Positions 1 through 1,590 of a stretch of DNA of 64,000 bases are shown here, one piece after another. Under the pieces are notes generated by a model that ran no database searches, had not been told where the DNA came from, and saw nothing but the letters and a program-made list of their open reading frames with translations. Both the position numbers and the translations under genes were made by a program. Source of the stretch: Verrucomicrobiales bacterium (GTDB lineage Bacteria > Verrucomicrobiota > Verrucomicrobiia > Verrucomicrobiales > V1-33); contig JAQGPJ010000105.1 of assembly GCA_028293125.1 (NCBI GenBank), forward strand, positions 1 through 64,000, written 5' to 3'. Within the stretch, counting starts at the first letter, position 1; each line of letters starts with the position of its first letter.

Positions 1-319
1 TGTTGAAGCCGCCGGTGGCGTTGTTGCAGGTGTAGGTCGTGTTGCCGCTGTCGGAGTCGTCCTTGCCGCCGGCGACCTGCTCGAGGTCGGAGTCGGAGAG
101 CTCGGAGCCCTCGGTGATCACGTGGGGGAGGCGCAGGTAGATGGTGTCGCCGGTCTCCTGCACCACCTTCACCTCCATGCCTTCGGGCAGTCTGTTGTTG
201 AGCTGGGTCTCAATGACTTTTTTAGGGTCCTTGAGCAGGGCGGCGCGGTATTCAGGATGACGGGCGGCGTTGCCAATCACGATTTCCTCGATCTCGTTGC
301 GTGTCAGTGTTTCAGCCAT
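1..319 (-). CDS. NHLP-type RiPP precursor peptide (3' end cut by window edge)
   Basis: Read on the minus strand from ATG at 319, the frame stays open for 106 codons to the window edge. The first 85 residues look like the nitrile-hydratase-alpha-like leader of the NHLP precursor family (TIGR03793): a helical start (MAETLTRNEIEEIV), AALLKDPKKVIE, then LPEGMEV, a DTIYLRLP block, and a closing LSDSDLEQVAGG. The double glycine (residues 84-85) is the expected protease site of a C39-type peptidase/ABC exporter. The visible core starts KDDSDSGNTTYTCNNATGGF and is rich in Asn, Thr and Ser with one Cys, so it is a plausible substrate for modifying enzymes. The core end, the modification enzymes and the exporter are not in view and should lie to the left. 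No good ribosome-binding site is seen apart from AAAGG near -10. The family call is strong; the modification class is unknown. Confidence 0.9.
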   Translation of the reverse strand, partial: MAETLTRNEIEEIVIGNAARHPEYRAALLKDPKKVIETQLNNRLPEGMEVKVVQETGDTIYLRLPHVITEGSELSDSDLEQVAGGKDDSDSGNTTYTCNNATGGFN

Positions 320-436: not shown

Positions 437-925
437 TAAAATTTTACACAACCATAACATGTTGATTTGGAATGACTTAAAAATGAACATTTTTTGACGT
501 CTATTTTTGGCCACTGTTTCCCTTCCATTTTCGGACCTGTTATGGAGCCGGGACTCCATAAAATGGAGCTGTGATTCCGGCGGCGGCCGCAGCGGTGGCA
601 GGTGGGTGGCCTGCCAGCGCCGGGCTCCTGAAATTTAAAGAGTTCCGGACACCATTTCCACGCCCAGCGCGTCCCTCCCAGCCGCAAGCCGGGCAATGCG
701 CGCGCCGGTCTATGCGCTGTTGTCAGCGATTATTGATGGAGCGCCGGTCCGGTCGCCGGAATCTGTGGTTTCCGGAGCGGCATGCAGGCTTCCCCAGGCT
801 GCAATCAGCGCTCCCGGAAATGGGCACGCAGGCGTTCCAGGCAATTGTCACCACTGTCCTGTGAAAATGACCCCGCCGGGATGCCATCAAACCCGGTGCC
901 GGGAAGGACCAGGGACTCAAGGGAT
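437..925. other. Non-coding gap between RiPP precursor and LRR gene
   Basis: No convincing gene is seen here. The part near the precursor (about 437-510) is AT-rich and suits a promoter on the minus strand. A perfect 7-bp inverted repeat TATGGAG/CTCCATA lies at 541-560. Several short open frames between 571 and 938 have no recognisable family and look like chance frames in GC-rich DNA; decayed 3' sequence of the neighbouring LRR gene is possible but not demonstrable by eye. Confidence 0.5.
541..560. repeat. Perfect inverted repeat, possible operator
   Basis: TATGGAG-CCGGGA-CTCCATA forms a perfect 7-bp stem with a 6-base centre, followed directly by another ATGGAG copy. It has no T-tract on either side, so it is not an obvious intrinsic terminator. 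It lies 220 bases upstream of the RiPP precursor start and could be a protein-binding site; this is inference. Confidence 0.35.
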
Positions 926-1590
926 TCAAGCCGGATGAGCTTTCCGGAAAGATTCCTTATTTGGATTGCCCCAAACGTTGAGGGACTGGAGGGAGCCGAG
1001 CCCCGCCAGCGGCTCCAGCATGGTGATTTGGTTTTGGGAGCAGTTCAGGAGCTGGAGCGGGAAAAGCCTTTCCAGCCCCGCCAGACTGGTCAGCTGGTTG
1101 CACCAGCATGCCAGGAACTGGAGGGAGGACACTCCTGACAGCGGCTCCAGCGTGGCAAGCCCGTTCATGGAGCAGTCGAGGGACTTAAGGGAGGGGAGCT
1201 TCGCCAGCGTGGTCAGCCGGTTGCCGAAGCATTCGAGGGACTTAAGGGGGGCAAGCCCTTTGAAAGGGCTCAGATCCGCCCATCCTATTCTGCGGATGTG
1301 AAGACGCTTCAAATTTAGGAGACTGGCCTACCGTCCCCCATCAGGGGTTGGCTGGTTTGGGCCCAGACGGGCTGCGACGCCCGCCATTGCCCGTTCTCAT
1401 ACCAGCCAAGCCCAAGGTTCAACCCTGTGAGAGGCCCCAGCTCCCACAGTTCCTCGGGCCAGGTTTGAAGCCCCAGCTCCCCCAGATCCAAAAATCCGCT
1501 CCTTTCCTCCTTCTCCCTGGCCATGCGCTCGCAGGCGATTCTTAGACTTTCGGGTTCATCGGGCATGGCGGGCAGCGGAAATGGTATCAC
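926..1590 (-). pseudogene. Leucine-rich-repeat protein, frameshifted
   Basis: Two minus-strand frames together encode one LRR protein. The upstream piece (1590-1315) contains GFLDLGELGLQTWPEELWEL, a typical first LRR cap, and stops at TAA (1315-1317). The downstream piece (to 926) continues in the -1 frame with LNLKRLHI and about five LxxLxxLxxLxC/N-type repeats (LKSLECFGNRL, LKSLDCSMNGL, LQFLACWCNQL, LQLLNCSQNQI, LQSLNVWGN). A -1 slip near CAGTCTCCTAAAT would join them. The first frame can begin at GTG 1590, which overlaps the smc stop as GTGA (coupled translation), or at ATG 1566. LRR proteins of this size mediate protein-protein contacts; the role here is unknown. A sequencing error is an alternative to true decay. 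Confidence 0.7.

Follow-up and report, generated by a model that had tools for sequence, protein, structure and literature searches.

Scattered precursor genes with one nearly constant core, likely encoding a class II lanthipeptide, in a Verrucomicrobiales bacterium

In the genome of a Verrucomicrobiales bacterium, at least six scattered copies of an NHLP-leader precursor gene encode a near-identical core peptide, and a single locus appears to provide maturation and export for all of them. The core varies even less than the leader, and this near-constancy is unusual since scattered precursors normally encode many different peptides. Judged from the encoded proteins, the product is likely a lanthipeptide of class II with its ring at [TS]-Y-x-C, and we consider with good confidence, function excluded, that the dispersed genes form a sigma-54 regulon which makes one near-identical secreted peptide of this class.

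Precursor gene at the contig edge

The window, i.e., the whole stretch of 64,000 nucleotides that was analysed, comprises bases 1-64000 of contig C13 (214,651 bp) in a draft genome of 6.48 Mb (120 contigs, 99.1% complete). The features of the precursor gene and its upstream region are the following.

2-319, minus strand: NHLP-leader precursor gene, ATG at 319, truncated by the contig start (TIGR03793 and overlap with C55)
65-319, minus strand: leader peptide of 85 residues with C-terminal ELSDSDLEQVAGG (translation and alignment to the other copies)
2-64, minus strand: core residues 1-21, KDDSDSGNTTYTCNNATGGFN; the complete core is KDDSDSGNTTYTCNNATGGFNTRNEFSSEVSLI, its last 12 residues lying on C55
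422-436, minus strand: sigma-54 -24/-12-like element TGGCATGGCATGAGC, of the form GG-N10-GC (motif search)
542-568, minus strand: tripartite upstream site CTCCATTTTATGGAGTCCCGGCTCCAT, a candidate enhancer for a sigma-54 activator (exact-pattern search)

On the minus strand, positions 2-319 translate to MAETLTRNEIEEIV...ELSDSDLEQVAGG followed by the core KDDSDSGNTTYTCNNATGGFN, and the GG at the end of the leader is, from the alignment of the copies, the predicted cleavage site for a C39 peptidase. The TIGR03793 model for the NHLP leader matched residues 6-85 of the window precursor with 65.4 bits (E 3e-18) and a second precursor with 68.9 bits, against a cut-off of 50.9, which together with the translation bears out the sequence-only reading of this frame as an NHLP-type RiPP precursor with a leader of 85 residues. 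Because the window starts at base 1 of contig C13, the minus-strand frame runs off the contig before its stop codon. The remainder is found on contig C55, whose first 105 bases match exactly the final 105 of the precursor copy in the window; within this overlap lies a synonymous ACG codon that is common to C13 and C55 only, among the precursor copies read. On C55 the frame ends after ...TRNEFSSEVSLI with a stop codon, 33 residues 3' of the GG.

The match of the window precursor to the nitrile hydratase alpha subunit was weak (28.7 bits, cut-off 249.85), and this identity was rejected, as the frame stops 33 residues past the GG and the score is far under the cut-off. Two outcomes had been named beforehand as contrary to a precursor; the globular nitrile hydratase continuation is absent, and exporter and modification genes, the lack of which was the other, exist in the genome. 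An AlphaFold2 model of the single precursor sequence was poor (pLDDT 46) and was left unused. Nearby in the window, a leucine-rich-repeat coding sequence (926-1590, minus strand) lies in two frames, 926-1312 and 1315-1590, possibly one frameshifted gene.

Copies of the precursor gene in the genome

A DNA search showed that the first 420 bases of the window match eight other places in the genome. There are nine precursor pieces in total, eight at contig ends and one interior (on C2), and the contig-end matches, which fall in or just past the precursor gene, are those on C38, C89, C75, C55, C120, C110 and C46 plus the window copy. This placement at contig ends marks the precursor genes as the repeats at which the assembly broke. 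Counted by distinct 3' ends, the copies occupy at least six loci (C13/C55, C38, C2, C89/C120, C110 and C46), with the C13-C55 and C89-C120 joins based on contig-end overlaps in a draft assembly; C75 carries a further 5' half, which may pair with C110 or C46.

The genomic neighbours of the copies are unrelated to one another, and the window copy is a stand-alone satellite gene. Its position beside smc had been read as an odd setting; it looks like mere dispersal, the other copies lying among equally unrelated genes. The complete cores each contain one Cys and 9-10 Ser/Thr, and the only core positions that vary within the genome are 4 (S/A), 10 (T/S) and 17 (T/V). The calculated monoisotopic mass of the linear core is 3543.53 for the KDDSDSG form and 3527.54 for the KDDADSG form. 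Among the four complete copies, pN/pS was 0.151 for the leader and 0.057 for the core, these being simple Nei-Gojobori proportions, uncorrected and from short sequences, in which codon bias or gene conversion may shift pS. Further copies with the same leader, which the sequence-only reading had led us to look for, thus exist, while the different cores expected along with them do not, the core being near-constant.

Modification and export genes

C89 ends with the same 127 bp with which C120 begins, an exact overlap that lies inside another precursor copy. A k-mer size of 127 is common in assemblers, and because the shared stretch is of that size, the two contigs are very probably neighbours in the genome. 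Read across this join, the order is a Ser/Thr-kinase-like gene, a TolC-like gene, HlyD, ABC1, ABC2, a sigma-54 activator, a DUF7005 gene, the precursor and LanM; the large kinase-like gene, identified by eye, is on the opposite strand, and LanM is followed on C120 by genes for a GNAT protein and an unknown protein and by a leader-only ORF of 73 residues on the other strand.

The exporter proteins on C89 all score above their cut-offs, namely HlyD (TIGR03794, 314 bits against 156), ABC1 with its C39 peptidase (TIGR03796, 1089 bits against 853) and ABC2 (TIGR03797, 889 bits against 709), and the C39 peptidase domain in ABC1 has its Cys/His/Asp motifs. Genome-wide, one protein per NHLM ABC family exceeded the cut-off, both of them on C89. 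The LanM on C120, immediately after the precursor copy, scored 686 bits with TIGR03897 against a cut-off of 304 and is the sole LanM of the genome, there being one DUF4135 match genome-wide. It aligns with LicM2 over most of its length, the dehydratase motifs are kept, and its zinc-site motifs are WCHGAPG and LCCG, the latter within HLCCGTMG at residue 1031 (CCG type). The exporter operon also contains an AAA+ sigma-54-interacting activator in which the GSFTGA motif is present. The C39-peptidase exporter and the modification enzyme anticipated from the precursor were thus located on C89/C120, but not to the left of the window, where the biosynthetic locus had been placed; the 20 kb read on C55 hold no LanM or NHLM gene, the sole ones being those on C89/C120.

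The DUF7005 protein of this locus (L023 15800-16945, on C89) carries an HExxH-like motif, HEACH. Its family was found in 4 of 388 genomes of the phylum, and the motif is present in three of the four members and lost in the G398 member. As a dedicated NHLP partner it was set aside as a weak candidate, given four genomes out of 388 and only two members beside NHLP export genes. The leader-only ORF (L027, on C120, 5616-5834, minus strand, 73 residues) resembles an NHLP leader with a TIGR03793 score of 35 bits, below the cut-off; a GG and a core are lacking, and the ORF is preceded by a GG-N10-GC element and by a degenerate form of the upstream site.

Common promoter architecture

A GG-N10-GC element, with the spacing of a sigma-54 -24/-12 promoter, was present 106-117 bp before the start in all five copies of the genome with readable upstream sequence. 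The pattern TGGCAYGNNNTGAGCTTTATT, allowing at most one mismatch, occurs four times in the genome, always 5' of a precursor, and CTCCATNNNATGGAGNCCNNGCTCCAT in exact form occurs five times, once per readable copy, about 213-251 bp 5' of the start; the controls, for the former a reversed pattern, gave no match. The upstream site has the tripartite layout CTCCAT/ATGGAG/CTCCAT. Three-mismatch matches to it were found 5' of the leader-only ORF and, on the other strand, overlapping the C89 site, and a two-mismatch match lies at C100:11458-11484, where a GG-N10-GC element is also present. The gene that these sites precede (L070 3850-8193, minus strand) encodes about 1450 residues with FG-GAP repeats and a peptidase S11 domain, probably secreted, and judging from these two sites it is a possible further member of the regulon.

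RpoN is present in the genome (422 bits), and the parts of a sigma-54 regulon were all found, i.e., the GG-N10-GC promoter, the upstream site, RpoN and the AAA+ activator. The activator of the exporter operon is the obvious candidate regulator of the upstream site, the link being one of proximity only.

Core conservation in related genomes

The same core was absent from 12 other genomes of the family and from the viral contigs searched. Among 388 genomes sampled across the phylum nearly all were without a precursor and the few matches had unrelated cores, and the other matches were distant ones, on two plasmids (Azospirillum B510 and Nostoc) and on Acidobacteria and Myxococcota contigs. In an order-level sample of 387 genomes a related core was found in two, G453 and G554, which belong to one genus of another family of the order and carry at least 11 and at least 5 copies, respectively, both lower bounds from the 11 first-look candidates that were scored. 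Their cores are KDDTYSCNESIGGFNTRNEFSASVF or begin with KDDTYTC, and two others read KGG(G)DTYPCNEKSGGFNTRNEYNVGL. The joint consensus with the cores of the first genome is [TS]-Y-[STP]-C-N-x-x-x-GGFNTRNE[FY], and the residue at Cys-3 is T or S in all cores read (TTYTC, TSYTC, DTYSC, DTYTC and DTYPC), while Cys-1 may be Pro.

For ten cores of G453, by the same uncorrected proportions and with the same reservation about pS, pS was 0.44 in comparison to 0.45 for the leader, and core pN was 0.006, giving a pN/pS of 0.013. Because the synonymous divergence of the core equals that of the leader while pN is near nil, the G453 copies are not recent duplicates and selection holds the core, which these substitution proportions place under purifying selection.

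The promoter element recurs in these relatives. Of the 12 KDD-type precursors whose upstream sequence could be read, 10 have a GG-N10-GC element 89-108 bp before the start, and the two without it are the last genes of tandem triples. These elements have the same spacing as in the first genome and mostly read GGCACGNNNNTTGC, with the classical TTGGCACGNNNNTTGC. Inverted TGGAG/CTCCA sites lie 5' of several G453 and G554 precursors, the upstream site being less regular than in the first genome. Each relative also has one KGG(G)DTYPCNEKSGGFNTRNEYNVGL precursor (KGGDTYPC type) without a sigma-54 element (L105 2087-2395 and L102 3975-3664). Three tandem precursors adjoin the same neighbour gene in G453 and in G554 (L095 1451-2894 and L103 76-1615), a conserved array, where the annotations of neighbours are readings by eye, made without a family search. 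Reading the precursor contigs of the two relatives and, in the 8.8-Mb genome with 11 copies, another 40 stretches (0.47 Mb) brought up no LanM.

Comparison with known systems

By every sequence test made, the system is a member of the NHLP/LanM kind. NHLP precursors and the NHLM exporter were defined by Haft et al. 2010 (PMC2887384), who noted LanM partners and stressed hypervariable cores. The present system shares with theirs the leader family, the GG site, the exporter subunits, the presence of several precursors per genome and the pairing with a LanM-like enzyme, there described for Nostoc. It differs in that the published sets are hypervariable after the GG, as in natural combinatorial biosynthesis, while in the present copies no part is more conserved than the core, which is recognisably common to two families of the order.

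The second comparison is with the prochlorosins and synechococsins of ProcM and SyncM (PMC10783134), where likewise one LanM with the CCG motif is found along with many precursors scattered in the genome; this motif characterises ProcM-like synthetases, and a part in their promiscuity has been proposed for it. Leaders of the prochlorosins are of the Nif11 type and their different cores number in the tens, in contrast to the NHLP leaders and the one near-constant core here, and the word 'sigma' is absent from that paper. In the NCBIfam scan of our precursors no Nif11 leader model matched, and the NHLP leader did.

Two loci resemble the present one in gene content. In the Acidobacteria MAG contig QQVD01000056 (L055 9493-13958) two NHLP precursors stand before a LanM of the CCG type and a TolC-like gene, but the core is unrelated (VPVQCEVTQVGG..., read in one precursor) and the LanM is 29% identical. 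In G360, of the same phylum, a locus with two NHLP precursors contains DUF7005, TolC-like, HlyD-like and NHLM-like ABC genes, but the cores are unrelated and the neighbours, as read by eye, look like radical SAM-type maturases; other neighbour annotations there that no family search supports are likewise readings by eye. No paper with the core motif was found in the literature searched, which leaves most subscription journals outside, and no description of the product was found, in keeping with the earlier expectation that it is likely undescribed. What appears new here, at the level of genes and their upstream regions, is the constant core, the multiplied gene and the shared sigma-54 architecture.

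Proposed pathway and alternative explanations

From the protein families and the anatomy of the precursor, we propose the following pathway. An activator binding CTCCAT/ATGGAG/CTCCAT, probably the AAA+ sigma-54 activator of the exporter operon, would act with sigma-54 on GG-N10-GC to switch the scattered copies on together. The single LanM would then recognise the NHLP leader, dehydrate Ser/Thr and close a thioether, which would most likely join the Cys to the Thr/Ser three residues earlier ([TS]-Y-x-C), although a single Cys with several Ser/Thr would also allow other outcomes, such as dehydrated residues only or another ring. Cleavage after the GG would fall to the C39 peptidase domain of NHLM ABC1, and ABC1/ABC2/HlyD/TolC would export a core of about 33 residues. 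The copies would raise the dose or give independent maintenance, not chemical diversity. Weighing against this pathway are the LanM not found in the stretches read of the multi-copy relatives, the two KGGDTYPC-type precursors that have no sigma-54 element, and the less regular upstream site in these relatives.

The strongest competitor departs from this pathway in function only, and takes the product to be an ordinary antibacterial class II lantibiotic whose extra copies serve yield. A LanM with a C39 exporter is the standard lantibiotic apparatus, and we treat this explanation as a real, if minority, possibility. It fits less well with a locus in which no clear immunity gene was recognised, and with a core that is near-invariant across copies and shared between families, where NHLP sets are reported to be variable (PMC2887384). 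In view of a fixed core and a multiplied gene, we put a peptide of conserved function, signal or surface-active, slightly ahead of an antibacterial one; the former falls not far short of an even chance, and an arms-race antibiotic is somewhat less probable.

It is unlikely that the copies arose when a single precursor cassette was recently amplified in the manner of a mobile element, with copy number unselected and core constancy due to recency or gene conversion. The homologous unit in the first genome does begin at about -280 and end shortly after the stop codon, the flanks beyond diverging, and the C89 leader has diverged at residues 1-50 while its core is near-identical, as gene conversion would give. 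Against this stand the synonymous divergence of the G453 cores noted above, which speaks for old copies with a core held by selection, and the lack of a transposase recognisable by eye next to the copies.

More improbable still is that the precursors are exported without lanthionine formation and that LanM acts on other substrates. Each core has one Cys only, as this would allow, but the sole LanM stands right behind a precursor copy, a second type of intact NHLP precursor was not found in the genome, and T/S at Cys-3 is kept in every core. Least probable of all is that the dispersed copies are satellites whose leaders titrate or feed LanM and the exporter, some as decoys, with the leader-only ORF and its two upstream elements as the extreme case, since in full-length copies the core and not the leader is the most constrained part.

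Biological meaning

Large dispersed precursor sets with one promiscuous LanM have been interpreted as natural combinatorial libraries. The present genomes have the same anatomy and the opposite evolution, with many copies, diverged synonymous sites, a fixed core and a specific common promoter architecture. In general, the favoured pathway leads us to suggest, tentatively and with somewhat less than even confidence, that this is a case of one product from many genes, in which a lanthipeptide recognisably conserved between families of one order, encoded by about six to at least 11 scattered genes in a sigma-54 regulon, would serve the producer as a signal or a structural peptide and not as an antibiotic. 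With this system one can test what a cell gains from many genes for a single modified peptide, be it dose, a synchronised burst or signalling, and a LanM of the CCG type whose natural repertoire is close to a single substrate becomes available for contrast with ProcM.
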